Source: Polycladidibacter stylochi (lineage in GTDB: Bacteria > Pseudomonadota > Alphaproteobacteria > Rhizobiales > Stappiaceae). Taken from it: 64,000 nucleotides of DNA. The stretch's first letter is position 1; each line of letters starts with the position of its first letter. The stretch spans positions 186,001-250,000 of the forward strand of contig NZ_LLWE01000014.1 in the NCBI RefSeq assembly GCF_001562055.1, read 5' to 3'. Of the stretch, positions 2,653 through 26,249 are shown one piece after another. A program made the translations under genes and the position numbers. The notes beneath the pieces were generated by a model, which was given only the letters and a program-made list of their open reading frames with translations, did no database searches and was not told the DNA's origin.

Positions 2653-3087
2653 CTAAGCTGCAACATTTGCAATTTCTTCAAGACGATCTCGTTCGGTACA
2701 CCCCTGTTCACCGTTCAAGATGCTTTCTTCAATTGCGAACAATTTTCTCAATGTTTTTAATGCATCGAAGTAGCGTTTCCTAGAAACTTGATCCTCAATT
2801 AAATCAAGTCCCTCGTGAATATCGATGTTCGAAATCGCCCTGCGAATTAGTCCCATGATAGTTGTATACTGGCACAAAGATGCCGCATCACCTATCGGAG
2901 AAATCAACGCGTCTTGTATTGTAAAGTAAAGTTGACGCAGTGGCGTTGTTGTCTCTTCTACCTGCAATACATAACTACCTAGTAGAAACCTGACATCATT
3001 CAACAAGTTGAGCGTTGTTTTTTGGTCAAACGAAATCACTGCTCCGTTTAGAAAAACTTTTTCCCCTGCCCTTAGATGAATCCGCAT
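2653..3087 (-). CDS. flbT: Flagellin post-transcriptional regulator FlbT
   Basis: FlbT controls flagellin synthesis after transcription. In Caulobacter it associates with the 5' untranslated region of flagellin mRNA and promotes its decay. This copy has 144 aa, with the conserved start LRAGEKVFLNGAVISFD at residues 5-21 and a mostly helical remainder. It is 9 bp downstream of flaF, its antagonist or partner in the family. In this window four flagellin genes carry a structured leader that is a plausible RNA target; that link is inference. Confidence 0.93.
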   Translation of the reverse strand: MRIHLRAGEKVFLNGAVISFDQKTTLNLLNDVRFLLGSYVLQVEETTTPLRQLYFTIQDALISPIGDAASLCQYTTIMGLIRRAISNIDIHEGLDLIEDQVSRKRYFDALKTLRKLFAIEESILNGEQGCTERDRLEEIANVAA

Positions 3088-3096
3088 CCAAGCCCC

Positions 3097-3444
3097 CTAA
3101 TTCAAACCGTCACGAATGTTTTCGTTAATCTCGATCAAGCCATCGAAGTCATCGCTCTCACCTGAGCGAATTTTATCAGCCTGCTTCACACACCAAAGGC
3201 CGATTGAAATCAAATCTGCACGTAGATTTTCAGGAAGCGAATTTTCGTCGCTCCCCAAGTCTTCAATTAAAAAAGTCCAGAGGCGACCAATAGTCGTTAA
3301 AGCAGTAATCGCTTCATCCGAGTTAGGTCCTTTTTCTTTTGCCTCGCGCAATTGCATGATTGCGAGCGTGAAGACTTCTTTTTCTTGTCCACGTTTATCG
3401 TAGGCTGAGTCTTCGATGGTCTCAGCATATGACATTTGATACAT
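3097..3444 (-). CDS. flaF: Flagellin synthesis regulator FlaF
   Basis: FlaF is an alphaproteobacterial cytoplasmic protein needed for flagellin translation or secretion; it works with FlbT. The protein has 115 aa, with the family N-terminus YAETIEDSAYDKRGQEKEVF and the conserved stretch ITALTTIGRLWTFLIEDL at about residues 46-63. The start at 3444 has AAGG seven bases upstream. It lies in the flgK-flgL-flaF-flbT-flgD order typical of Hyphomicrobiales. Confidence 0.93.
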   Translation of the reverse strand: MYQMSYAETIEDSAYDKRGQEKEVFTLAIMQLREAKEKGPNSDEAITALTTIGRLWTFLIEDLGSDENSLPENLRADLISIGLWCVKQADKIRSGESDDFDGLIEINENIRDGLN

Positions 3445-13048: not shown

Positions 13049-14754
13049 TATGCTGGCTCCTGATTATACATCCATTGCTTCAGAATGATCGCAGCTTGCA
13101 TGTCATCAATCTCAACGGCACGCTCAAGTTTCTTAAGCGCTGAACGGTTAAGTAGCGTCTCATCCATTTCCTCAAGAGAGAATTGTGCGTCAGAATCTTG
13201 CGCATTCAAGTCCGGCAACAGAGCCAAGGCATCAGGATCACCTGCCGCTATTGCAGCCAACTGCTCTGGAGAAAGTTGTTTAGGTACACTACCTGCTTCA
13301 GCTTCTTGAGCAACTTTCTCTTCCGCCTGCGGTATAAGGAAAGCAACAGCTGGACGTAGACCGAACCAAATAATGAGCAAACTAACCACCAGAATAGATA
13401 GCGCATTTACGATACTACCCATATTTCTGGTTAAGACTTCTGTCAGTGTCCGCTCTGGGATAGCAGCCAATTCCCCGGTTGGATTAAGGAAGTTAACAGC
13501 CGTTACAGTAATCTCATCACCGCGCGCTTCTTTCAAACCCGAGGCCATTGCAATAATTTGCTTAATTTCTGTAATTTTTGGCGCAATATCAATCTCGGGC
13601 TGCTCTTCGCCTTCCGCAACAGGCGGCAACCCTTTCTTCACCTCATCGACCAAGCGATCTCTATTTACCAGCACCGCTATTGATAGCCGCTCTACTTTAT
13701 AATCATCAAATACTGTTTCGACAGTTTTTGATGATATTTCATAGTTCGTCAGCTCTTCACGACGCTCATTTTGCTCTGTAGAGCGCTCACCATTAGATGC
13801 TGACACATCCTCCTCGGGTAAGTTTTGCTCAACAGTTGTTGGATTTTCCAAGCTGGAATTTTGAGAGGATTCGTTTTCTTTAACAACTTTAAAAGAACGC
13901 TCAACACGCGAATCGGGATCGTAGGTCGTTTCAGAAACACGTTGATTATCTGTATTAACTGAAGCCGCTACACTGACCTCAAAGTTACTCATACCAAGGT
14001 ACGGGGTTAGCGCCTGGCGGATAGAAGCCTGAACTCGCGATGATATATTATCTTCAAGCATTGCCTTGCGACCCGTAGAGGCACTTTGCGGATCTTCACC
14101 GGTTGCCAACAACTTACCCTCAGTATCTAGCACAGTTACCGATTCTGCAGTCAAACCAGGAACAGCCGCCGCAACCAAATATCGTATCGACTGGGCCATA
14201 ACACCTTCATTGGTGCCATCTGTTCGAATAAGTACTGATGCTGTTGGCTTTTGCTTTTCAGCCCTAAAGGTTGCTTTTTCTGGCAAGACCAAATGCACGC
14301 GCGCGGCTTTAATGCCGTGCATGGACTGAATTGTACGACTTACCTCGCCTTCAAGCGCACGTACCTTTGTTACACTTTGCATAAACGACGTTAAGCCTAA
14401 TGAACCCATCTGGTCGAACAGTTCATAACCCGCGCCCGAACCACGCGGCAAACCTTTTTCTGCCAACAACATACGCGCACGCGCTGTACTACCGACACTA
14501 ACAGAAACGACGGTTCCATCTGCGCTAACATCGAACGGGATACCGGCAGATTGCAACGCTGTTCCAATTTGCGTAACATCATCGCGCTCTAAATTCGCAT
14601 AGAGCACTTCTTGCTCTGGACGGGATAACATATAAGCCGCAAAGCCAATTGCGGTAAAAGTAAAAATTGCAATAAAAGCCAAAGCCAAAAGGCGCTTTGC
14701 ACCCAACTCAGCTAGATTGGCATAAATTTTTTCTGCGTTTTCGCGAGCAGCCAT
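13048..14754 (-). CDS. fliF: Flagellar MS-ring protein FliF
   Basis: FliF is the MS-ring subunit of the basal body. The 568-aa protein has a membrane helix at about residues 22-42, ring-building domains (LLAEKGLPRGSGAGYELFDQ near residue 96; RVHLVLPEKATF near 148) and a second membrane helix at about 435-465. The C-terminal tail, with LNRSALKKLERAVEIDD, binds FliG. It heads the unit fliF-fliH-motB-motC-fliK-transglycosylase. A weak direct-repeat box at 14801-14816 is the only candidate control site seen. Confidence 0.95.
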   Translation of the reverse strand: MAARENAEKIYANLAELGAKRLLALAFIAIFTFTAIGFAAYMLSRPEQEVLYANLERDDVTQIGTALQSAGIPFDVSADGTVVSVSVGSTARARMLLAEKGLPRGSGAGYELFDQMGSLGLTSFMQSVTKVRALEGEVSRTIQSMHGIKAARVHLVLPEKATFRAEKQKPTASVLIRTDGTNEGVMAQSIRYLVAAAVPGLTAESVTVLDTEGKLLATGEDPQSASTGRKAMLEDNISSRVQASIRQALTPYLGMSNFEVSVAASVNTDNQRVSETTYDPDSRVERSFKVVKENESSQNSSLENPTTVEQNLPEEDVSASNGERSTEQNERREELTNYEISSKTVETVFDDYKVERLSIAVLVNRDRLVDEVKKGLPPVAEGEEQPEIDIAPKITEIKQIIAMASGLKEARGDEITVTAVNFLNPTGELAAIPERTLTEVLTRNMGSIVNALSILVVSLLIIWFGLRPAVAFLIPQAEEKVAQEAEAGSVPKQLSPEQLAAIAAGDPDALALLPDLNAQDSDAQFSLEEMDETLLNRSALKKLERAVEIDDMQAAIILKQWMYNQEPA

Positions 14755-14884
14755 ACGAACCTCTAAGGTATCTCATTCCTGCACACATTTGCTCAATAAC
14801 CTTGCGCGAAAATTGAGCACACATTCTCTAATGAGTTTTGGCATTAATTAACGAGCAATTAATACCAGAAGTTGCATCTAGACA

Positions 14885-14909
14885 TAAAAAAGAGGGGACA
14901 ACCCCCTCT
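14885..14909 (-). terminator. Terminator after the 267-aa unknown gene
   Basis: On the minus strand AGAGGGG (14909-14903) pairs with CCCCTCT (14897-14891) across a 5-base loop, followed by TTTTT. It separates the unknown gene from fliF. Confidence 0.85.
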
Positions 14910-14935
14910 CCGATAAGCCAGAAATATAATAGGAT

Positions 14936-15739
14936 TCAGCGAAAACTTTGAATTTTACCAATGTCTTTACTTAGTATTTTATGCTTATTAAATTTCATTT
15001 CTTTTTTCGCAAGCATTGCAACCGTAATTGCTTGCGACATAGACAGCGCGCGACCCTTTAACAAACGCTGTTTTCGATATACTTCACTTTGAACTTGCTC
15101 AAAAGCCTCAGTAAGTTTGCCGCGTAATTTGGCAATTTCCTCTGAACGCGCTTGAAGCACTTCCTGAACTTCGCCAATTGCCGTGACCAAACGAGGCAAA
15201 TTACCTTGCAAACCAGCAGATGAAACATCTACATTCAGCAAATTATATTCAGCACCGTCAGCATACTCAATTATTGGTTGCTCTAATAAGCCACCTGCGC
15301 CCATGAGTTGATAACGCGAGAGATCGAACACCTCCCAAGTCAAGTCAAATATATCTTTATTCCGTCTGGTAAATCCTACCAGTATAGCTTCAAGTGCCTC
15401 AACCTGCTTTTGCTTATTAACGCTTGGCAAGCCCGAAACTGCCAATACATCTTGCAACTGAGATTGAATTCTTGCTATTTCTGACTGCAACTTTTCACGA
15501 TCAGCGGTTTGCAACTCTGCCTCAAGCAAATAATTCCTTATTTGGAATATGAGCGAAGTAATACGCCCAAGGACCAACTCGGAACCGGCCTCCCAGTCAC
15601 TCACAAGAGGTTTGTTTTTTTGCTTAACCTGCTCCTTACGCGTAACCGCACTTGTTAGAACAGCACCGGAAAAGTCCTTAATTCCGAAGTTACTAGCATC
15701 ATCTACGGTTCTAATGGCCTGATTATAAGAGACTGCCAT
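14936..15739 (-). CDS. Unknown flagellar-regulon protein (267 aa)
   Basis: I do not recognise this protein. It has 267 aa with no signal peptide or membrane segment. It is mostly helical with heptad-like stretches at about residues 75-110 and 195-225, and a basic C-terminus (NKHKILSKDIGKIQSF). It stands alone between fliF and the flagellin array with its own terminator. The upstream box GTCAG-GTACGG-GCAAG (15811-15826) is identical to that of flgE, so it is very probably expressed with the hook genes. Export substrate, chaperone or filament-associated protein are all open. Confidence 0.8.
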   Translation of the reverse strand: MAVSYNQAIRTVDDASNFGIKDFSGAVLTSAVTRKEQVKQKNKPLVSDWEAGSELVLGRITSLIFQIRNYLLEAELQTADREKLQSEIARIQSQLQDVLAVSGLPSVNKQKQVEALEAILVGFTRRNKDIFDLTWEVFDLSRYQLMGAGGLLEQPIIEYADGAEYNLLNVDVSSAGLQGNLPRLVTAIGEVQEVLQARSEEIAKLRGKLTEAFEQVQSEVYRKQRLLKGRALSMSQAITVAMLAKKEMKFNKHKILSKDIGKIQSFR

Positions 15740-15810
15740 TTTTCACACCTTTTCGGTATTTTGCGCAGGAGTTATTGATCTTTTGAATATAAAAACAATA
15801 AAAAAAAAAG

Positions 15811-15826
15811 CTTGCCCGTACCTGAC
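15811..15826 (-). promoter_or_regulatory. Candidate Rem box upstream of the 267-aa unknown gene
   Basis: The minus strand reads GTCAG-GTACGG-GCAAG, identical over 16 bp to the flgE box, and is followed by a T-rich stretch. It lies 71 bp upstream of the ATG. Confidence 0.6.
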
Positions 15827-15863
15827 CCTCGGTACAATTTTATTCAATTAAAATATTTCACGT

Positions 15864-15895
15864 TTATGAAGGAGAGTCCCCCCCCTCCTCCATAA
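15864..15895 (-). terminator. Hairpin downstream of flagellin 1
   Basis: TTATGAAGGAG (15864-15874) pairs with CTCCTCCATAA (15885-15895), 11 bp with one wobble, directly after the flagellin 1 stop. There is no clear T run, so it is a weak terminator or an mRNA-stabilising end. Confidence 0.5.
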
Positions 15896-15900
15896 CCACC

Positions 15901-17082
15901 TCACTTAAATAAGCTTAGTAGTGTATTTGTCGAGGCATTTGCAATAGATAGAGCCTTAATACCCAATTGCTGTTGCGATTGAAGCGCTTTAAGCCGTGTT
16001 GACTCAATGTTCATATCCGCATCCACCATCTGGCTCACACCGCGCGTAATAGCATCAGACAAATCCGACACGAATTCCTTTTGCATATTTATACGCTTTT
16101 TCGCGGAACCCAAATGTGTCGCAGCATCTGTGATTTTACCCATCTGCTTATCAACAGTCGATATAACAGCTTTTAGTACCGCCTTATCTTCCACCGACTT
16201 TTCAAGCCGAGAAATATCAAGGTCAATAATTGCCTTACCACCAAGCTTCAGAAGGGATTGATCAACACGATCAACAATTTCACTGAGTACTACCTTATCG
16301 TAGTCTGGTGCATACTCAGCAATTGTATCCTTAAGAGCTTTCTCATAGGCCCGGATTTTATAGCCGTCAGCTTTATCTTCCGGAACAACTAGCTGCATTT
16401 CCGGCTCAACTGCAGGCGCTGCAACAATTACAGGCACAGCCAAGGGGTCGGCCTCAACGGGTGAACTACCTGGCTTATAATTTAGCCAAGCTGTATCCGC
16501 ATCCCCTTCCAGTGAAGAGGTCACCAAACCAATGTTTTTATCTGGATTGTCTTGCGTATCGACCAGAACCAACTTCGAACTATCAACTTGAATAGATTCT
16601 ATATGCACCGAACCATCGGCGTTACGCGTAAACGAACCAGTTATTTGCTTGTTAAGATCATCTAGTTCTGCATTCTGTTCCAGCCAATTCTCACCGGAGA
16701 AGTTAGCAGAGGAAGCTATTGTTGAAAGCTGTCCTTGAAGTTCATTCAAATCAGATTGGATTTTATCTTTATCAATGGACCCATCAGTGGAAGTTGTGAG
16801 CTTTTGTTCCATTTCAGATACGACCTTGACTGTCGTATCCATTGCTTTGAATGCCACATCAACAGTTGCAGCACCCAATCCAAGCGCGTCTTTTACAGCG
16901 GATAACGCCCCCTTATCGGAGCGCATTGTCGTTGCGATAGACCAATACGCGGCATTATCAGAAGCATTTGCCACGCGTTTACCTGAGGAAATTCGATCTT
17001 GCGTTACCGAAATTCCTTTTTCAATGCCACGCAATGTGTTTAGCGCGATCATTGCTGCTGTATTCGTCAGTAAAGCTGTCAT
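15901..17082 (-). CDS. Flagellin 1
   Basis: Filament subunit, 393 aa. The N-terminal D0/D1 region (LLTNTAAMIALNTLRGI, then RISSGKRVANASDNAAYWSI) and the C-terminal region (MQKEFVSDLSDAITRGV, then LKALQSQQQLGIKALSIAN) are those of alphaproteobacterial flagellins. The middle, about residues 150-290, is specific to this copy and carries an acidic, Pro/Val-rich stretch. It ends LLSLFK where the others end ILSLFR. It has its own direct-repeat box (17192-17207) and structured leader (17083-17147). Confidence 0.95.
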   Translation of the reverse strand: MTALLTNTAAMIALNTLRGIEKGISVTQDRISSGKRVANASDNAAYWSIATTMRSDKGALSAVKDALGLGAATVDVAFKAMDTTVKVVSEMEQKLTTSTDGSIDKDKIQSDLNELQGQLSTIASSANFSGENWLEQNAELDDLNKQITGSFTRNADGSVHIESIQVDSSKLVLVDTQDNPDKNIGLVTSSLEGDADTAWLNYKPGSSPVEADPLAVPVIVAAPAVEPEMQLVVPEDKADGYKIRAYEKALKDTIAEYAPDYDKVVLSEIVDRVDQSLLKLGGKAIIDLDISRLEKSVEDKAVLKAVISTVDKQMGKITDAATHLGSAKKRINMQKEFVSDLSDAITRGVSQMVDADMNIESTRLKALQSQQQLGIKALSIANASTNTLLSLFK

Positions 17083-17147
17083 TATGTGTCCCGCTAATTA
17101 CTAAGGGACATTCCAGATAACTGGATATTGCAAAACGGCCTCATGCC
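17083..17147 (-). promoter_or_regulatory. Structured flagellin leader RNA, copy 1
   Basis: Three hairpins are read on the minus strand. P1 is GGC/GCC with an ATGAG loop (17147-17137). P2 is TCCAG-TTAT-CTGGA (17125-17112). P3 is TGTCCC/GGGACA (17110-17087), whose right arm contains the GGGA Shine-Dalgarno six bases before the ATG. The same plan recurs before flagellins 2, 3 and 5. Confidence 0.7.
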
Positions 17148-17191
17148 TACTCATCGAGCTTGCAATTAATTAAAAGTATTAAGTCTTCAAA

Positions 17192-17207
17192 CTTGCTTCT
17201 AGCTTAT
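17192..17207 (-). promoter_or_regulatory. Candidate Rem box, flagellin 1
   Basis: The minus strand reads ATAAG-CTAGAA-GCAAG, a diverged first half-site with a perfect second one, 110 bp upstream of the start. Confidence 0.45.
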
Positions 17208-17261
17208 TAGTTCAGTTTTTATGTATTTTTTATTAGGTATTAATTCTAGTTATTTCATAAC

Positions 17262-17287
17262 AAAAGAGGCTGCCCGAAGACAGCCTC
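17262..17287 (-). terminator. Terminator of flagellin 2
   Basis: On the minus strand GAGGCTG (17287-17281) pairs with CAGCCTC (17272-17266), followed by TTTT. Confidence 0.8.
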
Positions 17288-17316
17288 CCGATGGTAAACC
17301 TTGAACTCGTTAAATA

Positions 17317-18528
17317 TTAACGGAACAGGCTCAGGATGTTTTGCGCACCGGAGTTCGCAATAGACAGCGCCTGAATACCAAGCTGTTGCTGTGTTTGCAG
17401 AGCTTTCAAACGTGTGGATTCTGCGTTCATGTCCGCATCCACAAGCTGACCAACACCGCGCTGGATCGCATCAGAAAGCTTACCAACAAATTCTTTTTGC
17501 ATGTTGATACGCTTTTTAGCGGAACCAAGGTTGGTTGCAGCAGTTGTCATTTTGGAGATCTGTGTATCCACAGAAGAAATAACAGCTTTCAGAACAGCTT
17601 TATCTTCAAGAGACTTACCAAGCTTAGAGATATCTATATCCAATACAGAGTTACCCTTAAGCTTAGCAAGGGATTTATCAACCCCATCCTTAATTGCTGT
17701 AAGACCAGCATCGTCAAACTTCGCATAATCTTCAGGCTTGGTTGTAGCAATCTTAGCTTCAATAGCTTTAGCATAAGCAAGAACTTTAAAGCCAACTTTC
17801 TTCTCGTCCAAAGATTTCCAATCAATATTCATCTTTGGAGCAACACCCGCTACGCCAGGTGTTGTTATAGCACCAGTTGCGGACTTAACTTCTTTGACTT
17901 CCTTAACACCATTAGTGATGAAGCTCTTAATCGCATCAAGATCCAACTCACCGGTCATATCTTTCGTCAAGATACCTTTATTATCGGCCTTTGTTTCCTG
18001 TGTATCAACAAGAACGACCTTCTCAGTATCAACACGGATATTCTTGATGGAAGTTGCGCCATCTGCAGTACGTGTAAAGGAACCTGTAATAGACTTATTC
18101 AGGTTGTCTTTTTTCATGTCCTGTTGCAGCCAGTTTTCACCGGAGAAGTTTGCAGAAGCAGCTACAGTTTTCAACTGACCTTGAATTTCTTTCAAGTCAG
18201 ACTGGATTTTTTCTTTGTCAACAGAACCGTCAGTTGCTGTTGTCAGCTTTTTCTTCATTTCGTTAACGTTGTCAACTGCCTTATCCATAGCAGTAAAGGC
18301 AACATCAACTGTCGCAGCACCAAGACCCAAAGCATCTTTAACAGCGGAAAGCGCGCCATTGTCAGATTTCATGGTTGTCGCAATAGACCAGTACGCAGCG
18401 TTGTCAGAAGCATCTGCCACGCGCAAACCAGTAGAAATGCGGTTTTGGGTTGTTGCCATGTTGTTGTTGATGTCCTGCAATGTGGACAGTGCAACCATGG
18501 CGGAGGTGTTGGTCAAAAGGCTAGACAT
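17317..18528 (-). CDS. Flagellin 2
   Basis: Filament subunit of 403 aa, the longest of the five. It has the conserved D0/D1 ends (SSLLTNTSAMVALSTLQDIN; LGIQALSIANSGAQNILSLFR minus its last residue) and a Lys-rich variable centre at about residues 165-290. It shares the N-terminal block RISTGLRVADASDNAAYWSI with the other copies. A Rem-type box (18645-18660), a complete leader (18529-18595) and a terminator make it a single-gene transcription unit. Confidence 0.95.
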   Translation of the reverse strand: MSSLLTNTSAMVALSTLQDINNNMATTQNRISTGLRVADASDNAAYWSIATTMKSDNGALSAVKDALGLGAATVDVAFTAMDKAVDNVNEMKKKLTTATDGSVDKEKIQSDLKEIQGQLKTVAASANFSGENWLQQDMKKDNLNKSITGSFTRTADGATSIKNIRVDTEKVVLVDTQETKADNKGILTKDMTGELDLDAIKSFITNGVKEVKEVKSATGAITTPGVAGVAPKMNIDWKSLDEKKVGFKVLAYAKAIEAKIATTKPEDYAKFDDAGLTAIKDGVDKSLAKLKGNSVLDIDISKLGKSLEDKAVLKAVISSVDTQISKMTTAATNLGSAKKRINMQKEFVGKLSDAIQRGVGQLVDADMNAESTRLKALQTQQQLGIQALSIANSGAQNILSLFR

Positions 18529-18595
18529 AATATTGTCCCTTCGATAATTGGGACATTCCGGATTAAAACCGGGACTGCAATTGGAGCATCATGCT
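18529..18595 (-). promoter_or_regulatory. Structured flagellin leader RNA, copy 2
   Basis: P1 is AGCA-TGA-TGCT (18595-18585), P2 is CCGG-N7-CCGG (18572-18558), and P3 is TGTCCC-N10-GGGACA (18555-18534). GGGAC is the ribosome binding site, and the linker AATG between P2 and P3 is shared with copy 1. Confidence 0.72.
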
Positions 18596-18644
18596 GACCA
18601 CCTATGGTGGTGGTATGCAGTAGTTATACAATTAATTAGTGTAT

Positions 18645-18660
18645 CTTGCCTGTAGCTGAC
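18645..18660 (-). promoter_or_regulatory. Candidate Rem box, flagellin 2
   Basis: The minus strand reads GTCAG-CTACAG-GCAAG, close to the consensus, 117 bp upstream of the ATG and about 50 bp upstream of leader hairpin P1. Confidence 0.6.
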
Positions 18661-18696
18661 CAAATAACAAGTAAACCAAAACCAATGGAATAATAT

Positions 18697-18721
18697 AAAA
18701 AGGGCCACCCGAGGGCGGCCC
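18697..18721 (-). terminator. Terminator of flagellin 3
   Basis: On the minus strand GGGCCGCCC pairs with GGGTGGCCC, a 9-bp stem with one G-T wobble, followed by TTTTT. Its core is shared with the terminator at 20051-20079. Confidence 0.88.
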
Positions 18722-18748
18722 AATTTAAATACTTTTTGCTATATCCGA

Positions 18749-19675
18749 TTAACGGAACAGGCTCAGGATGTTCTGCGCGCCTTGGTTAGCAATGTTAAGA
18801 GCTTGAATACCAAGCTGTTGCTGTGTTTGCAGTGCTTTCAGACGTGTAGATTCAGCATTCATGTCTGCATCAACAAGCTGACCAATACCGCGATCAACAG
18901 CATCTGTTAACTGACCAACAAACTCTTTTTGCATATCAACACGTTTCTTGAATGAACCAAGCTGAGAAGCAGCTTTCGTCATTGCCTTCAACTGCGTATC
19001 AACAGCCGTTTGAAGATTAGACAATGCTGTATCATCATCTGCAGTACCACCCATGGCAGAGATATTGAAGTCAAGAACATTCGTACCAGTGATACCGCCA
19101 CCAGCAAATGTTAATGCTGCATCAAGAATACCAGCGCCACCGCCTGCTGTATCAATCAACGTTATATTCTTAGTATCAATAGCAATCATCTCAACCTTAG
19201 GATTGCCAGCCGCATCACGCGAGAAGCTACCAACAGTTGATTTAATAGGATTTGCTGTACCAACTTGTTGTTGTAGCCAGTTTTCACCATTGAAAGTTGC
19301 AGATGCAGCAATAGTTTTCAGCTGGTTTTGCATTTCTGTCAGATCGTCCTGGATTTGTGCTTTTGGCACAGAACCTTGTGATGCAGCAATCAATTTTGCT
19401 TTCATATCACGAACAACTTTAACAGCAGAGTTCATTGAAGTGAAAGCGATATCTACAGTCGCAGCACCAAGACCCAAAGCATCTTTAACAGCAGAAAGAG
19501 CTTTGTTATCTGAACGCATTGTTGTTGCGATTGACCAGTATGCAGCATTGTCAGAAGCATCAGCAACACGGTAACCAGTAGAGATACGGTTTTGTGTCAT
19601 ACCCATGTCTTTATTAATAGAAGACAGAGTTTGCAGAGCAACCATTGCGTTGCTGTTAGTCATCAAGCTAGACAT
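18749..19675 (-). CDS. Flagellin 3
   Basis: Filament subunit of 308 aa with a compact centre. The conserved ends are SSLMTNSNAMVALQTLSSIN and the C-terminal block ending QNILSLFR. The short centre at about residues 150-220 is Gly/Ala/Thr-rich (DTAGGGAGILDAALTFAGGG). It carries its own box, leader and terminator. The leader at 19676-19754 has the longest hairpins of the set. Confidence 0.95.
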   Translation of the reverse strand: MSSLMTNSNAMVALQTLSSINKDMGMTQNRISTGYRVADASDNAAYWSIATTMRSDNKALSAVKDALGLGAATVDIAFTSMNSAVKVVRDMKAKLIAASQGSVPKAQIQDDLTEMQNQLKTIAASATFNGENWLQQQVGTANPIKSTVGSFSRDAAGNPKVEMIAIDTKNITLIDTAGGGAGILDAALTFAGGGITGTNVLDFNISAMGGTADDDTALSNLQTAVDTQLKAMTKAASQLGSFKKRVDMQKEFVGQLTDAVDRGIGQLVDADMNAESTRLKALQTQQQLGIQALNIANQGAQNILSLFR

Positions 19676-19754
19676 ATCTAAAAGTCCCTAATGAATAGAA
19701 TTAGTGGACATGTCGGATTTACTTATACCGACAGCAGCAGAATGGCATCATACC
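19676..19754 (-). promoter_or_regulatory. Structured flagellin leader RNA, copy 3
   Basis: P1 is GGTA-TGA-TGCC (19754-19744), P2 is TGTCGG-N11-CCGACA (19733-19711), and P3 is GTCC plus an inner CTAAT/ATTAG stem closing on GGGAC (19709-19684). The base pairs differ from copies 1, 2 and 5 but the fold is kept, which argues for selection on structure. Confidence 0.7.
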
Positions 19755-20050
19755 AACTAATTAGCAACTATTTACTTATCAGCTCTGCGCTGACAACAGA
19801 TAATTAGTTGAAACTTGCCTGAAATTTACCTATTTACTGTGCATAATATAGTATTTAATATCATAAATACATTTTTATTATTGTATGTATGGCGTATATT
19901 TCATACATTATTAATATATATGCATAATATTAGTAATAGTCGCTATGTATTTGCTTTGCATTTTTAGATATGAAATTGATAATAGATTTATTTTTTTTGC
20001 TCTGACTGTGAATTATCATGTTTTATCGAAAGGAATTCACTGCAAAACAC
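19755..20050. other. AT-rich spacer in the flagellin array
   Basis: This is the longest gap of the array. It holds a candidate Rem box (minus strand GTAAA-TTTCAG-GCAAG, 19814-19829) for flagellin 3. Beyond it lie about 200 bp of very AT-rich sequence with many TA and AT runs and no reading frame. It could be bent upstream DNA; nothing more can be supported. Confidence 0.4.
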
Positions 20051-20079
20051 AAAAAGGCCACCCTATCGGGCGGCCTTTT
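20051..20079 (-). terminator. Terminator of flagellin 4
   Basis: The stem is AGGCCACCC/GGGCGGCCT (20055-20063 with 20068-20076), pairing with one wobble on the minus strand, with T runs on both sides. It can work in both directions. Confidence 0.85.
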
Positions 20080-20100
20080 ATCTTCTAAACCACTATCTTA

Positions 20101-21126
20101 TTATCTAAATAAGCTGAGTATGTTTTGAGCGCTGTTGTTTGCTATTGAGAGGGCCTGGATACCCAACTGCTGTTGTGTTTGAAGCGCCTTCAAATGCGTA
20201 GCCTCAACATTCATATCCGCATCAACAAGCTGACCTACACCTCGAGATATCGCATCTGATAGTTCAATTACAAACTCACTTTGTAAGGTAACACGCTTTT
20301 TCACTGAACCTAATGTGGAAGCTGCAGAACTCATTTTCTTTTGTACAATATCAATTTCTTCTATGAGCTTGTTCAGTATCTTTAAATCGTTTTTAGATGT
20401 CGACAGACCTGAAATATCCATAGTTAAAGTGGACATTTCGCTAAAGTCTTTTTTATCGTCACTGCTTCCCATCCAACGGAACGTATCGGTCAAGATTGCT
20501 TTTTTAACTGGTACTTCAAAGAAAAGGCCTGCACCGTGCGTGTGCATCTCCCCATCTCTCATTCCAAAATGCAGCCACTCCAATTCTGGAGGCTTGGGAG
20601 ATGTATTCACGAGTACAATATGTTTGGTATCAATATGGATTTCTTCTAAAGAAAAGACACCTTTATTCCGCCTGACCGAGCCTGAAATAGATTTTTTCAG
20701 CTCATCTTTATCAACGTTTTGCTGTAACCAGTTTTCTCCAGAAAAATTGGCTGAGGCTGTAATCGTGCTAAGTTGCTTTTGGAGCTGACTAATATCAGAT
20801 TGGATCTTCTCTTTATCAAGCCCATTATCCGTAGCAGCGACGAGTTTATTTTTAATTTCATCGACGACTTTAATGGATTGATCCATCGCCGTAAAAGCCA
20901 CATCAATTGTCGCAGCCCCTAGGCCTAGAGAATCTTTCACTGCTGAAAGCGCAGTATTATCCGATTTCATTGTCGTTGAAATTGACCAGTATGCAGCATT
21001 ATCCGATGCATCACTCACACGCAGTCCAGTAGAAATTCTAGATTGTGTTTCGCCCATTTTTTTATTGACTGCACTTAAAGTGTTCAATGCAATCATCGCT
21101 GAACTATTTGTTAATAGGCTAGACAT
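20101..21126 (-). CDS. Flagellin 4 (divergent, without leader element)
   Basis: Filament subunit of 341 aa. The ends are clearly flagellin (SSLLTNSSAMIALNTLSAVN; LGIQALSIANNSAQNILSLF). The centre at about residues 155-245 is unlike the other copies, with His, Met and aromatic residues (GMRDGEMHTHGAGLFFEV). The 187-bp upstream gap lacks both the three-hairpin leader and a convincing direct-repeat box. A minor, differently timed or stress-linked filament subunit is likely, but that is inference. Confidence 0.93.
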   Translation of the reverse strand: MSSLLTNSSAMIALNTLSAVNKKMGETQSRISTGLRVSDASDNAAYWSISTTMKSDNTALSAVKDSLGLGAATIDVAFTAMDQSIKVVDEIKNKLVAATDNGLDKEKIQSDISQLQKQLSTITASANFSGENWLQQNVDKDELKKSISGSVRRNKGVFSLEEIHIDTKHIVLVNTSPKPPELEWLHFGMRDGEMHTHGAGLFFEVPVKKAILTDTFRWMGSSDDKKDFSEMSTLTMDISGLSTSKNDLKILNKLIEEIDIVQKKMSSAASTLGSVKKRVTLQSEFVIELSDAISRGVGQLVDADMNVEATHLKALQTQQQLGIQALSIANNSAQNILSLFR

Positions 21127-21257
21127 AAAGCCCCCATATTCCAGAAATATATTTTTTTTACTGCATTTTGTTTTTTCTTATGCAACTTACAGCATAAATT
21201 TTTTTATAATACAACCAAATTTGAAGAATAGATTATTTGATTTATTTGCTGTTTTAA

Positions 21258-21292
21258 TAAAAATAGCCGCGCCTTTTAACAGACGCGGCTAT
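21258..21292 (-). terminator. Terminator of flagellin 5
   Basis: On the minus strand ATAGCCGCG (21292-21284) pairs with CGCGGCTAT (21271-21263), followed by TTTTATT. Confidence 0.85.
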
Positions 21293-21313
21293 CTCATTTA
21301 TTTATATTGCTAA

Positions 21314-22222
21314 TTAGCGGAACAAGCTTAGGATATTCTGAGAACCGGAGTTCGCAATTGAAAGCGCTTGAATACCCAGCTGCTGTTGAGTCTGCAATGC
21401 TTTCAAGCGTGTTGATTCGGCATTCATGTCCGCATCAACCAGCTGACCAACACCACGGGAAATCGCGTCGGACAAGGCACCAACAAAATCTTGCTGCATA
21501 TCAATACGCTTTTTCGCAGAACCGAGTGTGGTTGCAGCATCTGTCATTTTAGAAAGCTGTCCATCAACATCAGATACTAAAGTATCCAATTTTGCCAAGT
21601 CGGCTGCGCTATCTGTCAAAGCAGAAATATCAATGGTAAGCATTGTCGAGGCACCGTCAGTGAGAACTGTATCAAGCAAACCTGCATTACCACCTGCAGA
21701 ATCGACAAGAACAACACCTGATGTATCAACTGTAATAGTCTCTATGGAAACAGCTGTACCGGAGCGGGAGAACGACCCTACTACTTCCTTATTGGTGTTT
21801 GCTGTACCAATAGCTTGCTCCAGCCAGTTTTCACCGTTGAAGTTTGCAGAGCTTGCGATTGTTTGCAGCTGCTCTTGAAGAGCGGCAACGTCTTCCTGAA
21901 TTTTAGCACGATCCACACCAGGCTCACGCGCAGCAACAAGTTTCTGTTTGATTTCATCAACTGTTTTAACAGCCTGATCCATTGCAGTGAAAGCAACATC
22001 CACTGTCGCAGCACCTAAACCAAGCGCATCTTTAACAGCGGATAGTGCGCCATTATCAGACTTCATGGTTGTTGCAATAGACCAGTAGGCAGCATTGTCG
22101 GATGCATCAGCAACACGCAGACCAGTAGAAATACGGTTCTGCGTTGTTGCCATCTGATCGTTAATACCCTGCAACGTTTGAAGAGCAACCATTGCTGAAG
22201 TGTTTGTCAGTAAGCTAGACAT
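21314..22222 (-). CDS. Flagellin 5
   Basis: Filament subunit of 302 aa from the ATG at 22222. The frame extends 8 codons upstream to 22246, but that part overlaps the leader hairpins and lacks family similarity. The ends are SSLLTNTSAMVALQTLQGIN and LGIQALSIANSGSQNILSLF. The centre is short and Thr/Ala/Gly-rich. It is the first flagellin downstream of the fliP operon terminator and has a perfect GCAAG direct repeat upstream. Confidence 0.95.
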   Translation of the reverse strand: MSSLLTNTSAMVALQTLQGINDQMATTQNRISTGLRVADASDNAAYWSIATTMKSDNGALSAVKDALGLGAATVDVAFTAMDQAVKTVDEIKQKLVAAREPGVDRAKIQEDVAALQEQLQTIASSANFNGENWLEQAIGTANTNKEVVGSFSRSGTAVSIETITVDTSGVVLVDSAGGNAGLLDTVLTDGASTMLTIDISALTDSAADLAKLDTLVSDVDGQLSKMTDAATTLGSAKKRIDMQQDFVGALSDAISRGVGQLVDADMNAESTRLKALQTQQQLGIQALSIANSGSQNILSLFR

Positions 22223-22292
22223 ATTATTCGTCCCTATTTGATGCACTGGGACATTTCGGATTTTAACCGAAGCAACGAAACGGCTTCATACC
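22223..22292 (-). promoter_or_regulatory. Structured flagellin leader RNA, copy 4 (before flagellin 5)
   Basis: P1 is GGT/GCC around ATGAA (22292-22282), P2 is TTCGG-N7-CCGAA (22271-22255), and P3 is GTCCC-N13-GGGAC (22252-22230), with the right arm acting as Shine-Dalgarno. Confidence 0.7.
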
Positions 22293-22347
22293 CTGCCCTA
22301 TTATTATTTTGTGGCAGTTCGTTACAGGACAAACATTGTACATGTAA

Positions 22348-22363
22348 CTTGCATGAAGCTTGC
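22348..22363 (-). promoter_or_regulatory. Candidate Rem box, flagellin 5
   Basis: The minus strand reads GCAAG-CTTCAT-GCAAG, a perfect 5-bp direct repeat at 11-bp spacing. Just upstream lies GTAACGTAA, a word also present upstream of rem. Confidence 0.55.
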
Positions 22364-22457
22364 TTAAATTACGTTACGTTACTTAGGGTTGTATTTATTT
22401 TATATTCTCTTTTTAGTTGTGTTAATAATTATGTTAAGGCTCTGATTAACAATAGAA

Positions 22458-22491
22458 AAGGCCTGAATATAGTTTCCTATATTCAGGCCTT
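22458..22491 (-). terminator. Terminator of the flgB-fliP operon
   Basis: A perfect 15-bp stem (22458-22472 with 22477-22491, loop of 4) is followed by TTTT on the minus strand. It is the strongest hairpin in the flagellar region. Confidence 0.9.
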
Positions 22492-22523
22492 GACTTAAAA
22501 ATACAATTTTAAAAAGTAATTTC

Positions 22524-23288
22524 TTAAACGAACGAGCGTATCAGACCAGCTGTCAAAAGATGCCACCCATCGACGAGTACAAAAAACAAAACCTTGAATG
22601 GCATTGATATTACTGTCGGCGGTAACATCATCATCCCCATGGACATCGTTAGCGTCGCAACAATCATATCTATAACAACAAAAGGCAACGCTATGAGAAA
22701 GCCAATTTCAAAGCCACGCCTTAGTTCTGATATCATGAAGGCTGGAATGACAACGCGTAGATCCAGTTTTTCTACCGGTGCATCCTTATCGTAGCCAAAA
22801 GAGCTAACTGCCAACTCATCGAATAAGACTAAATCTTTTTCGCGTATGTTATTTAACATAAAAGTTCGAAAAGGCTTTGTCATTTCATCGTAGGCGGCTT
22901 CTTCGCTAATCTCATTATTTATGAGCGGCTGTAGGCCATTACGCCATGCCTGATCGAAAGTCGGCGCCATTACGTAAAACGTCATAAACAAGGCAAGAGA
23001 TACCATGATTATATTGGCAGGCGTCGTTTGCAAGCCCATACCAGAACGCAAGAAACTCAATGCAACTGCAAAGCGAGTGAAGCTCGTTACCATTACCATT
23101 ATACCAGGCGCTAGCGAAAGTACTGTCAATATCATCAAGTACTGTATTATTCGCCCGGAAGCTGCACCCTGCCCTTGAGGCAACATATCTGCTAGGTTAA
23201 ACGATTGTGCAAAAGCAGCCCCCCCTATTGTTGTAAGAAAGAGGGCTGCCAATATAATCTGTATTTTTTTACGGTGTTTCGAGATCAC
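22524..23288 (-). CDS. fliP: Flagellar export gate protein FliP
   Basis: FliP is the core pore subunit of the type III export gate. The 254-aa protein has a cleavable signal peptide (to about AFAQ, residue 28) and the family signature MVTSFTRFAVALSFLR near residue 66. More membrane segments end at LLTAGLIRSF. The start overlaps the fliL stop by 4 bp (ATGA). It is the last gene of the flgB operon. Confidence 0.95.
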   Translation of the reverse strand: MISKHRKKIQIILAALFLTTIGGAAFAQSFNLADMLPQGQGAASGRIIQYLMILTVLSLAPGIMVMVTSFTRFAVALSFLRSGMGLQTTPANIIMVSLALFMTFYVMAPTFDQAWRNGLQPLINNEISEEAAYDEMTKPFRTFMLNNIREKDLVLFDELAVSSFGYDKDAPVEKLDLRVVIPAFMISELRRGFEIGFLIALPFVVIDMIVATLTMSMGMMMLPPTVISMPFKVLFFVLVDGWHLLTAGLIRSFV

Positions 23289-23770
23289 TGTATTACCACC
23301 GATTCAAGTACCAGTTCCCGCACATTATTGCCCCCGCGCATTTTAGCACGTTCATTAAGATCATCTCGTAATCTCAGTAGGCCGCGTGTACCTTCAAGCT
23401 GCCTTGGCCCGAGTGTTCGCGCATAAAGCAAAAAATCCTGCTCTATCTCTTTTACCAAAACAGCGTGATCATCTTCACTAAGGCTATCTTTTACTAAGAT
23501 AATCGAAGCTTCAATTCTTATCCAATGATCGGATGAGGAAAGCAGGTTGGTAACAATAGGCTTTAGGCCAATTATCTCGCTTCCCTTTACATATATTGGA
23601 TTAATCATGCCTGGGTTATCTTCACGACGCTCTTCAATAAGTTGCGTATGTACACGGTCAACTAAAGAGGAACCTAGCAAAGCTCCTCCGATTGCAGCAA
23701 AAACTGTTAGTGTAAAAATTGCTGTTGCAGCTGCGGCTTTAGGGTTTTCCCGAAAAAAATTCTTGAGCAT
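23285..23770 (-). CDS. fliL: Flagellar basal body protein FliL
   Basis: FliL is a single-pass inner-membrane protein that surrounds and supports the stator. The 161-aa product has one membrane helix at about residues 14-36 and a periplasmic domain with a family-typical end (LLRLRDDLNERAKMRGGNNV). It lies between flgH (8 bp) and fliP (4-bp overlap), as in rhizobia. Confidence 0.88.
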   Translation of the reverse strand: MLKNFFRENPKAAAATAIFTLTVFAAIGGALLGSSLVDRVHTQLIEERREDNPGMINPIYVKGSEIIGLKPIVTNLLSSSDHWIRIEASIILVKDSLSEDDHAVLVKEIEQDFLLYARTLGPRQLEGTRGLLRLRDDLNERAKMRGGNNVRELVLESVVIQ

Positions 23771-23778
23771 AGTCTCTC

Positions 23779-24489
23779 CTAGAATGGGGAAATCTTATCA
23801 AACACTTGCTGCCCTAAACCTGGCTGCTGCATTTGTGTCATTTGTCCACGCCCACCGTAAGATACACGAGCTTCTGCGATCTTGTCATAGGCGATGGTGT
23901 TGCGGCCGGTAATATCCATTGGTCTGACGATACCAGCTACATTAAGTACACGAATTTCGAAATTAACGCGCACCTCCTGTTGACCACTGATAATCAAATT
24001 TCCGTTTGGCAATACACGCGTAACAACTGCTGCAATTGATAGGTTAATTTTTTCTGCCCTATCAATTTGCCCCTCACCTTTCATTGTAGAACCACCAGTA
24101 CCAGATACTTGTGCTTCCATGCTACCGGTGGATACTGTACCCCACTTAAATGAGCCACCAATTCCATTCTTTGCAGAAGAATTGCGTTTTCTTTCTGAGG
24201 TATTATCCAATTGCGCGTTGTCGTTTATTGAAATTAAAACTGTAACAACGTCTCCGACATCATGCGCTCTTGGGTCCTTAAAAAAGTTTTGCTTGTCTTT
24301 GGCCCAGAGCCCATGAAAGCTCCGCTTTTTTTGCAGGTTTTGATTAGGAACAGCAAAGCTGGAACGAGCTATTTTGGGGTGCAAACCATCACCAAGTGGT
24401 GTCAGTTCAGGCTCTCTTCCAATATCACTCATCACTGTTGAGCAGCCTCCGAGCGCTGTCAATGCAGCAATAATCATAAGTTTTCTCAT
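23779..24489 (-). CDS. flgH: Flagellar L-ring lipoprotein FlgH
   Basis: FlgH builds the outer-membrane L ring. The 236-aa protein has a lipoprotein signal with lipobox LGGC (Cys16). The family motifs are DVVTVLISINDNAQLDNTSE, NLIISGQQEVRVNFE and the C-terminal RVSYGGRGQM. The start overlaps the motE stop by 4 bp, so translation is coupled. Confidence 0.95.
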   Translation of the reverse strand: MRKLMIIAALTALGGCSTVMSDIGREPELTPLGDGLHPKIARSSFAVPNQNLQKKRSFHGLWAKDKQNFFKDPRAHDVGDVVTVLISINDNAQLDNTSERKRNSSAKNGIGGSFKWGTVSTGSMEAQVSGTGGSTMKGEGQIDRAEKINLSIAAVVTRVLPNGNLIISGQQEVRVNFEIRVLNVAGIVRPMDITGRNTIAYDKIAEARVSYGGRGQMTQMQQPGLGQQVFDKISPF

Positions 24490-25040
24490 GATTGACCCTC
24501 TTTTGCTTTGCGCGCTGTAAGCATTGCCATTGTATCCGTTAGGAAAGCTGCACGATCTGATGGCATTTCGGCCAAGATTGCACCTGCCTGTCTTGGTTTC
24601 ATTTGTAATAGAATAGAAACAGCGGTGTTATCATCCAGGGTACCCAACTGGGCTGCAGCTGCATCAGCACGCATTTGCGCATAAATCTGCACAACGTGCC
24701 CTTCTGAGCGCTTTAAAATCTCATCTCGCTTGGTAACCCACTTTTTAAGCTCTGCAATTTTTGCATCAAGTGCAGTCATTTTATCATGCATACGCTTTTC
24801 AACATCGAATAATGCACGCATTTGCCATTCAATACGCGCATCCGTTGCAGATTCGGCAGTTGTTTTACAATAATTTTGCGCATCCTTTACAGCTTGGTGA
24901 ATTAGTTCCTTTTCCACCTCAACCTGCTCCGGCTGTTCATTATATTTTTGCGCCATCACCGGTGATACACACACCATCAACACACTGGAAATGGCCAGGG
25001 TACGTATAACTTGCAGCGCTTGATTATGTGGTCTCAACAT
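24486..25040 (-). CDS. motE: MotE, periplasmic chaperone for MotC
   Basis: In Sinorhizobium, MotE is a periplasmic chaperone that stabilises MotC. The 184-aa protein has a signal peptide (cleavage near VMAQ, residue 31), a coiled coil at about residues 85-115 and a C-terminal MgtE-N-like helical repeat (AAAQLGTLDDNTAVSILLQM). Its place between flgI and flgH is typical of the order. motC is in a separate operon at 9284-10489, so the pair depends on coordinated expression. Confidence 0.85.
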   Translation of the reverse strand: MLRPHNQALQVIRTLAISSVLMVCVSPVMAQKYNEQPEQVEVEKELIHQAVKDAQNYCKTTAESATDARIEWQMRALFDVEKRMHDKMTALDAKIAELKKWVTKRDEILKRSEGHVVQIYAQMRADAAAAQLGTLDDNTAVSILLQMKPRQAGAILAEMPSDRAAFLTDTMAMLTARKAKEGQS

Positions 25041-25079
25041 GGGCCTAACAGTTTCAATTCTATTTTATTGAATGTCTTT

Positions 25080-25104
25080 GAGTAAGCTTGTTTGTAGCTT
25101 ACTC
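25080..25104 (-). promoter_or_regulatory. Perfect inverted repeat containing a Rem-like box, between flgI and motE
   Basis: GAGTAAGCT (25080-25088) and AGCTTACTC (25096-25104) form a 9-bp stem with a 7-base loop. The same bases include GTAAG-CTACAA-ACAAG (25102-25087, minus strand), which fits the direct-repeat pattern. No T run follows. It is either an internal promoter site or an mRNA-processing hairpin. Confidence 0.45.
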
Positions 25105-25121
25105 TCTCAGGTACAAACGGA

Positions 25122-26249
25122 TCACTTAACAACCAAAGTTGCCTGAAGCGCTCCTGCACGTTTAATGGATTGCAAAATCGCAATAATCCCAGTTGGCTTC
25201 AAACCAATTCTGTTGAGCCCGCGCACCAGCGTTTGTAGGTCCGTACCTTGAACAATTTTGAGTTGACCATCGCCTTCTTCGGCATCAATTGCGGTTCGGG
25301 GCACAACTTGTGTTTCCCCAACACGAGCAAACGGACTTGGCTGAGAGACTTGCGGCTGCTCAGACACACGCACAGTTAAATTACCATGCGTAACAGCAAC
25401 CGTTGAAACTCGTACATTGCTACCAATAACAACTGTTCCAGTACGTTCATCAATGACAACTTTTGCAGGACTATCCGGCTGTACCATCAACCCTTCAATT
25501 TGAGAGATGAAGCGTACTGCACTCATGGAAACAGGTCGTTGCACCTCAATCGAACGATAGTCCAACTCCTTAGCCATCTTCACACCGTAACGGTTCATTG
25601 TGAAAGCATTAATTGCATCCGTTACTCGTACAGAAGTCTTAAAATCGGGATTTCTCAACTCATAAATAAGTGCCGGCAACTCAGCAAATTGGTCTGGCAA
25701 TGTTCTTTCAATTAAAGCACCATTGGAAACGACACCTGCTGTTGGCACACCTTGTGTCAATTGCTCGGCTTCACCTTCAGCAGAAAAGCCAGAAACAAAT
25801 ACAGAGCCTTGAGCCACTGCATAAACGTTTCCATCTGCCCCCATTAATGGTGTTACGAGCAAGGTACCCCCTTGCAGTGAACTTGCATCGCCAAGAGAGC
25901 CAACTGAAACATCAATTCTTGAGCCAAAGCCAGCGAATGGTGGCAATTCGGCTGTTACAACAACAGCAGCAACGTTAGCGGTTCCCAAACTAACATCGCG
26001 CACGTTAACACCCATACGCTCCAACATGCTTTGCAAAGCCTGCTCAGTAAAAGGTGAGCTTCGCATACTGTCACCGGTTCCATTCAAACCGATAACCAAG
26101 CCGTACCCAACCAATTGGTTGTCGCGCATGCCGCGTAAATGAGCAATATCCTTAATACGGACCATTGCTTGAGATGCTTCTGTCGCTGCAATAAAAATCA
26201 TTACCACCGGGAGAACCAGGCGGATCATTCGAGACAATAAAGCCGTCAT
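25122..26249 (-). CDS. flgI: Flagellar P-ring protein FlgI
   Basis: FlgI forms the periplasmic P ring around the rod. The 375-aa protein has a signal peptide (to about SQAM, residue 29) and the family start VRIKDIAHLRGMRDNQLVGY, followed by GLVIGLNGTGDS and GTLLVTPLMGADG. It ends with the conserved IGLKPTGIIAILQSIKRAGA block. It lies 3 bp downstream of flgA, its chaperone. Confidence 0.96.
   Translation of the reverse strand: MTALLSRMIRLVLPVVMIFIAATEASQAMVRIKDIAHLRGMRDNQLVGYGLVIGLNGTGDSMRSSPFTEQALQSMLERMGVNVRDVSLGTANVAAVVVTAELPPFAGFGSRIDVSVGSLGDASSLQGGTLLVTPLMGADGNVYAVAQGSVFVSGFSAEGEAEQLTQGVPTAGVVSNGALIERTLPDQFAELPALIYELRNPDFKTSVRVTDAINAFTMNRYGVKMAKELDYRSIEVQRPVSMSAVRFISQIEGLMVQPDSPAKVVIDERTGTVVIGSNVRVSTVAVTHGNLTVRVSEQPQVSQPSPFARVGETQVVPRTAIDAEEGDGQLKIVQGTDLQTLVRGLNRIGLKPTGIIAILQSIKRAGALQATLVVK

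Follow-up and report, generated by a model that had tools for sequence, protein, structure and literature searches.

Why do four of five neighbouring flagellin genes begin with the same folded leader, and what could such a leader control? The question arises from a 64,000-nucleotide stretch of the Polycladidibacter stylochi genome (contig NZ_LLWE01000014.1, positions 186,001 to 250,000; hereafter the window, G+C content 44.7%), whose minus strand carries five flagellin genes, fla1 to fla5, starting at 17082, 18528, 19675, 21126 and 22222. The original prediction, made from the letters of the window, held that fla1, fla2, fla3 and fla5 share a covarying leader RNA of three hairpins, which can hide the ribosome-binding site and is read by FlbT or FlaF. 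Comparison among relatives makes it near certain that this leader belongs to a structured RNA family that is real and widespread across the order Hyphomicrobiales.

Inspection of the minus strand revealed the leader in the four copies as claimed, and fla4 (ATG 21126) carries none of its hairpins. The mini-hairpin P1 is present in all four copies, as GGC-AUGAG-GCC in fla1, AGC-AUGAU-GCU in fla2, GGU-AUGAU-GCC in fla3 and GGU-AUGAA-GCC in fla5. The listed P2 stems (TCCAG/CTGGA, CCGG/CCGG, TGTCGG/CCGACA and TTCGG/CCGAA) are also found, and P3 pairs GTCCC with GGGAC in fla1, fla2 and fla5 and is a GTCC/GGAC stem lengthened by CTAAT/ATTAG in fla3. The three hairpins therefore exist, but they form only the 3' half of the element. 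In the upstream half, which had been missed, an outer stem Pa encloses a hairpin P0 together with P1 in a three-way junction, and P2 and then P3 follow 3' of Pa. Pa pairs GTAACGAA with TTCGTTGC in fla5, ATTGCAAG with TTTGCAAT in fla1 and ACTGCA with TGCAGT in fla2, and relatives carry variants such as CAGCAGG/CCTGCTG, CGACAGG/CCTGTCG, CGGCAGG/CCTGCCG and GTTACAG/CTGTAAC. The copies span 17080-17168, 18526-18623, 19673-19793 and 22220-22327, so the 65-80 bases first given are too short; the end placed at 22292 truncates the fla5 copy in its 5' part, which reaches 22327.

To describe the family we collected the sequence upstream of flagellin starts from relatives, yielding 233 distinct leaders. 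The P1 pattern G[CT]AT[GC]A.G[CT] occurs in 219 of them, most often as GCATGATGC (109) or GCATGACGC (43), and the 14 leaders without it were dropped. A further 38 lacked a clear Pa candidate, leaving 181, of which 114 are non-redundant. Fifty of these 114, hand-picked for a clean Pa and including fla1, fla2 and fla5 with fla3 left out, served as the seed of a covariance model of 116 positions and 29 pairs (R1). Run on 95 loci, R1 gave 192 matches, the best 150 of which form alignment A2; thinning of near-identical rows left 117 leaders for a tree test. A core-only model (R2) covers Pa, P0, P1 and P2 in 78 positions and was trained on flagellin leaders only (seed A3, 51 of 76).

In the window R1 recovers exactly the four copies, at 50.9 (fla1), 62.7 (fla2), 41.2 (fla3) and 70.7 bits (fla5), with the next best place at 6.9; in the whole genome it finds the same four, followed by places at 14.6, 12.1 and 10.9 bits. 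The fla5 leader (22220-22327, minus strand like all leader features below) is complete with Pa, P0, P1, P2 and P3 and ends in the start codon at 22222-22220; R2 places its core at 22251-22327 with 53.1 bits. Its Pa strands lie at 22318-22325 (5' strand) and 22272-22279 (3' strand, by R1 alignment). Inside Pa are P0 (CTGCC..GGCAG, 22293-22317), for which R1 aligns two pairs only and the 5-bp register was set by eye, and P1 (22282-22292, sequence and R1 alignment). P2 at 22255-22271 is UUCGG-UUAAAAU-CCGAA by R1 alignment, with a seven-base loop that looks T-loop-like by eye, and P3 occupies 22229-22253, its 3' strand GGGAC being the presumed Shine-Dalgarno (SD) sequence according to the R1 alignment and the predicted SD pairing. 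The complete fla2 leader places Pa at 18615-18621/18574-18582, P0 at 18597-18614, P1 at 18585-18595, P2 at 18558-18572 and P3 at 18534-18555 by R1 alignment. In the fla1 leader, also complete, the same alignment places Pa at 17159-17166/17127-17134, P0 at 17150-17158, P1 at 17137-17147, P2 at 17112-17125 (TCCAG/CTGGA register by eye) and P3 at 17087-17110. The fla3 leader, outside the R1 training set, is also found by R2 (40.7 bits). Its helices, counted by eye from the alignment, are Pa at 19784-19791/19733-19741 with one bulge, P1 at 19744-19754, P2 at 19711-19733 and P3 at 19684-19709 with CTAAT/ATTAG; the outermost pair of P2 competes with Pa.

Covariation supports the junction, in agreement with the claim of a conserved covarying leader. 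With partners swapped, the mean outer-stem score falls from 15.74 to 12.33 ± 0.21 (highest of 20 shuffles 12.74) in the 162 leaders that remained after 57 of the 219, in which the script could not locate P2, were dropped. In a structure-blind MAFFT alignment of 50 leaders (A1), the three top pairs by corrected mutual information all fall in Pa, and the covariation score of the 29-pair structure is 0.333 against 0.180 ± 0.008 shuffled and at most 0.112 when slid. Significance was assessed with a tree null, a custom simulation of substitutions on the tree, which returned three significant pairs on A1, all in Pa, and 11 on the model alignment of 117 non-redundant leaders, all within the structure (five in Pa, five in P0 and one in P1). 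Rows aligned by the model are fitted to the structure and thus biased in its favour; this applies also to A2, where 88.8% of cells pair (74.8% after shuffling), with a covariation score of 0.440 against 0.189 shuffled and at most 0.091 slid. A held-out set of 53 rows unlike any training sequence, aligned by the model and hence leaning to the structure, gave pairing of 0.861 against 0.684 with swapped partners for Pa, 0.817 against 0.511 for P0 and 0.981 against 0.927 for P1, and two significant pairs under the tree null, both in the structure. P2 pairs change between the window copies as described, but their held-out pairing is barely above the swap control (0.849 against 0.798). Covariation thus supports Pa and P0, and P2 weakly. 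In A2 the P2 loop has seven bases in 55 of 150 leaders, and these loops tend to U-G-N-A-A-N-Y, similar to the T-loop of tRNA, which suggests a tertiary contact.

Where transcription begins relative to the hairpins was judged from motifs anchored on Pa in 144 distinct upstream regions. TTAACC, which we take to be a CtrA half site, stands at -33 from Pa in 29 of them, GCAAG-type words mostly at -28 to -30, and CTA[AG] at -14 in 22; each class is commoner than in shuffled regions. In fla5, a promoter-like GCAAG (22348-22352) and TACAAT (22335-22340) lie just upstream of Pa on the minus strand. Because such words keep a fixed distance to Pa, the transcription start is likely a few bases before it, and starts inside the hairpins are not indicated by these motifs. 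A sigma-70 consensus scan of the window returned 16 promoter-like sites, against 16.0 in shuffles. A sigma-54 promoter at the P1 stretch was considered by eye and rejected, as the spacing does not fit.

The proposed hiding of the SD sequence by P3 is borne out as a prediction. In predicted ensembles of the leader plus 30 nt of coding sequence, the mean unpaired probability of the SD GGG is 0.034 over 150 leaders and lies below 0.2 in 94.7% of them; in the window the values are 0.001 (fla1), 0.001 (fla2), 0.039 (fla3) and 0.002 (fla5). P3 is conserved in sequence on both strands, which are complementary. We consider control of flagellin translation through P3 likely.

The element stands at flagellin starts in many Hyphomicrobiales, as covariance-model searches revealed. 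All 150 aligned rows, the best 150 of 192 R1 matches, end at a flagellin start. R2 matches occur in 75 of 297 genomes of the order and a fla5-type flagellin (E up to 1e-20) in 76, with both in 73. The three genomes with the flagellin only (G264, G305 and G323) belong to one genus, some other members of which match weakly. The two with the element only are G311, where the locus is cut by a contig end, and G368, whose match (28.2 bits, before a gene for a TldD-like protein by eye) is probably due to chance. Named relatives with R1 matches include Pseudovibrio, Rhizobium, Neorhizobium, Ensifer/Sinorhizobium, Agrobacterium, Mesorhizobium, Hoeflea, Aurantimonas, Salinarimonas and Tardiphaga. Among 385 genomes of the class, R1 gave 13 matches in 12 genomes outside the order, none above 29.7 bits, which we judged to be chance; tblastn found no flagellin at these 13 loci, one of which (L193) is cut by a contig end. 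The class search used strict filters and scored few candidates per genome, and may therefore miss weak members. The fla5 flagellin type is probably that of the 'lateral' system, as it is called in PMC6406911.

The core is not confined to flagellins. Among 126 tabulated R2 matches, 123 have enough downstream sequence and 3 do not. A flagellin starts within 250 nt downstream in 108 of the 123, in 106 of these at 21-52 nt after the core, and 15 have no flagellin. Eleven of the 15 precede chemoreceptor genes: nine have an MCP domain by Pfam (L224, L225, L226, L227, L229, L234, L237, L238 and L239), L228 was assigned by eye as the orthologue of L226 and L227, and L378 was recognised by eye from its signature sequence. 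The core also precedes a CheA-like fragment (L235) and a PAS-GGDEF-EAL gene (L242/L347), and a further R1 match, with only 23.3 bits by R2, lies before a PAS-GGDEF-EAL gene (L230). In a Rhizobium genome (G357) the core is followed by genes for a protoglobin chemoreceptor, a single-domain response regulator, CheA, CheR, CheB, a response regulator, CheD and FliF. R2 matches occur in all 37 genomes of this genus, and in at least 34 of them a match shares strand and contig with the flagellins and lies ahead of them, at a distance of 27.7-30.6 kb in 33 genomes and of 41.9 kb in one; the gene behind it was inspected in G109, G268 and G357 and is assigned by position in the remaining genomes. In another genome (G174) the core precedes MCP, CheA, CheW, CheR, CheB and response regulator genes. 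As judged by eye, the non-flagellin leaders retain P1, P2 and Pa/P0-like stems, and most are without the UGUCCC/SD arm. In the genome of the window only flagellins carry the element: none was found before its chemoreceptors, and each of the three next R1 places is over 30 kb away from any of the 20 MCP-domain matches.

No described RNA was found to account for the leader in the stretches and literature searched, and the original prediction knew of no described consensus for this lineage. None of the 4227 Rfam 15 models reaches its gathering score in window positions 14000-26000, in seven loci of the same genome or in 18 loci of relatives, nine of them non-flagellin; a MicX match overlapping the fla2 leader is at chance level (20.2 bits against a cut-off of 75, E 0.75). 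No description of the leader came up in the open-access literature searched, a scope that leaves out most subscription papers, including the primary FlbT papers. The flg-Rhizobiales RNA (RF01736, gathering score 55 bits) was considered and rejected as its identity, with no match in window positions 14000-26000 at E up to 1 and none in seven flagellin loci of the genome at E up to 10. Like the leader, that RNA is structured and precedes a flagellar gene in Hyphomicrobiales (Weinberg et al. 2010, PMC2864571), and it has three stem-loops (PMC3765529). The window leaders, however, precede flagellins and lack TTGGGAGA-type words, whereas RF01736 precedes a FlgF-like gene. Of the 47 RF01736 places found in the order, 30 were read together with a place in the genome of the window (L008); they are followed by a protein that is FlgF-like by eye and carry TTGGGAGA- or CTGGGGAG-type words, and tblastn found no flagellin within about 1.5 kb. 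G121, from the genus with the highest RF01736 scores, has the element before two adjacent flagellins. L008 (G000:C12:132967-133067) is the best RF01736 place of the genome, at 17.7 bits, on a different contig from the window leaders; this weak match lies before a gene that is FlgF-like by eye, has CTGGGGAG words and shares its contig with a second flagellar system. RF01736 may be under-called in this family.

Based on the sequence comparisons and folding models, we propose that the RNA switches late motility genes post-transcriptionally and that P3 is the output arm specific to flagellins, and regard the chances of this as even. A cis-regulatory RNA of about 90-120 nt would form the beginning of each of the four flagellin mRNAs, whose first base would lie shortly before Pa. 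In its conserved core, Pa would close a three-way junction with P0 and the mini-hairpin P1 (GGCAUGANGCC), directly followed by P2, and in flagellin leaders the further stem P3 would pair UGUCCC with the SD sequence GGGAC. A motility checkpoint factor may bind to the core; for flagellins the leading candidate is FlbT, perhaps together with FlaF. Binding would determine if the ribosome site is masked by P3 or accessible, and flagellin would thereby be produced once the basal body is ready. On chemoreceptor and che-operon leaders the same core might act through other output sequences.

Several observations weigh against this proposal. On 68 held-out leaders in a MAFFT-only alignment, the tree null gave no significant pair, although the rows look misaligned around P0. 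In held-out pairing, P3 equals its swap control (0.919 against 0.913, swapped maximum 0.925), and no P3 pair is significant under the tree null in the 50 MAFFT-aligned or the 117 model-aligned leaders; since both sides of P3 are conserved in sequence, covariation neither supports nor refutes this stem. When 120 nt upstream are included in the fold, the SD-like hexamer is unpaired with a probability of 0.255 (fla1), 0.475 (fla2), 0.013 (fla3) and 0.354 (fla5), and by this cruder measure, for which 36 other genes of the window average 0.50, the flagellin SD sites are unexceptional. Two R2 matches do not fit a motility gene: L231 (G087:C3:273580, 34.1 bits) precedes a 120-residue open reading frame (ORF) with no Pfam match, and L341 (G368:C7:105538) is the match before the TldD-like ORF already mentioned. 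A review explains the same late genes transcriptionally, through Rem, FliM and Orf38, so a post-transcriptional layer is not required by current knowledge. In addition, 137 of the 297 genomes encode FlbT and lack the element, and a role of FlbT restricted to flagellins leaves the core upstream of chemotaxis genes unexplained. Reading by FlbT or FlaF, which the original prediction had inferred, is not supported as stated, and FlbT presence fails as a predictor of the element.

Both genes are within the window, as had been claimed: FlbT, the candidate reader, is encoded at 2653-3087 (PF07378, 113.9 bits) and FlaF at 3097-3444 (PF07309, 113.5 bits), both on the minus strand. FlbT occurs in 210 of the 297 genomes. 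Of the 75 with the element, 73 encode it; the exceptions are G197, which is 86% complete, and G368. Several element genomes of two families (f11 and f44) have two FlbT copies, and sister genomes without the element have one; the genome of the window also encodes two. This fits one FlbT per flagellar system and does not single out FlbT as the reader. On contig C12 (G000:C12:141163-142349) the genome has a second flagellin type and a second FlbT without this leader RNA, and the two flagellar systems of the genome seem to differ in leader type. Descriptions of the role of FlbT in other bacteria differ. It binds the 5' untranslated region of Caulobacter flagellin mRNA and represses (PMC3930126), acting there as a repressor or mRNA destabiliser; the controlled leader is that of fljK (Anderson and Gober 2000, as cited in PMC4347634 and PMC3930126). 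In Brucella it has been suggested to be an activator (PMC4347634), and it translationally induces LafA1/LafA2 in Bradyrhizobium (PMC8429497). The fljK case resembles ours in the flagellin leader, the presence of FlbT and FlaF genes and the post-transcriptional coupling to assembly. It differs in that the RNA here also precedes chemotaxis genes in some genomes, and the R1 search of the 385 class genomes, with strict filters, found nothing convincing outside the order. LafA1/LafA2 are probably of the same flagellin type as fla5; FlbT is positive there and negative in Caulobacter, and the passage on them in PMC8429497 mentions no RNA structure. Our leader lies upstream of flagellins in a genome that encodes FlbT and is presumably transcribed, and FlbT is a possible reader of the flagellin copies.

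The gene set invites a wider and more tentative reading, which we consider doubtful: in Hyphomicrobiales, the late motility regulon of this flagellar system would be marked and controlled by one RNA fold, not a sigma factor. The Pa/P0/P1/P2 core on flagellin, chemoreceptor, che-operon and cyclic di-GMP-enzyme mRNAs would be read by a single signal acting in trans, and the output arm would differ by gene class, P3 being that of flagellins; the signal could be basal-body completion via FlbT/FlaF, or a small molecule. The enteric sigma-28 (FliA) late motility regulon comprises flagellin, chemoreceptors, che genes and cyclic di-GMP enzymes. The same kinds of genes carry the mark here, but the shared mark is an RNA fold and not a promoter. 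PMC12826043 states that Alphaproteobacteria have no known flagellum-specific sigma factor, and itself describes in Azospirillum an extracytoplasmic function (ECF) sigma factor for a minor flagellin. The three-way-junction RNA is a concrete, mutable target for studying how alphaproteobacteria without a known flagellar sigma factor postpone the making of flagellin and chemotaxis proteins to the time when the basal body is ready. Its presence in the leaders of these gene classes leads to the prediction that a single post-transcriptional signal acts on both flagellins and the Rhizobium che operon, and it offers a defined RNA on which the role of FlbT can be examined in laboratory rhizobia.

Another account, which we hold to be unlikely, is that the leader merely stabilises abundant motility mRNAs by 5' end protection or through RNase III or E processing, with no switching. 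Flagellin mRNAs are abundant, the leader probably begins with a stem, and P3 is conserved rather than covarying, all of which would suit a stabiliser. Such a role, however, needs no conserved AUGA loop, nested junction or stem over the SD sequence, and a specific partner is suggested by the return of the RNA in chemotaxis leaders.

The recurrence in chemotaxis leaders also bears on a riboswitch, in which the core would be an aptamer for a small molecule such as cyclic di-GMP or another motility signal and FlbT would act elsewhere. Flagellin, chemoreceptors, the che operon, CheA-like and GGDEF-EAL genes together resemble a second-messenger regulon, P3 looks like an expression platform apart from the core, and the junction and a P2 loop that is T-loop-like in some of the leaders are compatible with an aptamer (U opens 35 of the 55 seven-base loops, and A occupies position 5 in 38). 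Rfam holds the known cyclic di-GMP riboswitch classes, but none of them matched in the stretches scanned. The P2 loop is not seven bases long in 95 of the 150 leaders. Most aptamers have more strictly conserved unpaired positions than this core, where they are few and lie mainly in the AUGA of P1. We regard a riboswitch as rather improbable.

Far less probable is a reading of the inverted repeats as DNA operators, of CtrA for example, instead of RNA structure. The CtrA-like TTAACC half sites just upstream (the motif presumed, as above) and P0 itself, which reads GTTAACC..GGTTAAC in many Rhizobiaceae leaders, could be so read, and CtrA motifs are listed for Sinorhizobium meliloti flaA, flaC, flaD, mcpE and mcpY in PMC3616915; yet P0 and Pa vary freely in sequence with pairing kept in nested arms, and the promoter-like sites are upstream of the element. 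A short leader peptide starting at the AUG in P1, whose translation would control the flagellin gene, is very improbable: the AUG is present in 206 of 219 leaders, no frame has a stop within its first eight codons (0/206, against 54/206 in the +2 frame) and fla5 would encode MKPFRCFG, but the frame relative to the flagellin start is random (72/70/64), 86 of the 206 reading frames run past that start, 13 of the 219 leaders have AUC instead, and no SD sequence stands at the usual spacing by eye.

The flagellin genes themselves were taken from the ORF list and carry PF00669: fla1 at 15901-17082, fla2 at 17317-18528, fla3 at 18749-19675, fla4 at 20101-21126 and fla5 at 21314-22222, all on the minus strand. 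The listed fla5 ORF starts at GTG 22246, inside the P3 region, and the homology-based start is ATG 22222. Pattern matching placed terminator-like hairpins on the minus strand after fla2 (17264-17289), fla3 (18702-18721) and fla4 (20052-20079), and these genes are probably separate transcripts because such a hairpin follows each. Sub-threshold Rfam matches at 19971-20129 (Phe_leader up to 33.3 bits, RNAI and Leu_leader), on both strands and on or beside the hairpin after fla4, are presumably spurious. The region upstream of fla4 (21127-21240) is strongly A+T-rich, and fla4, the only flagellin of the five in which the R1 scan of the window finds no leader, may be expressed differently from the others or be silent.

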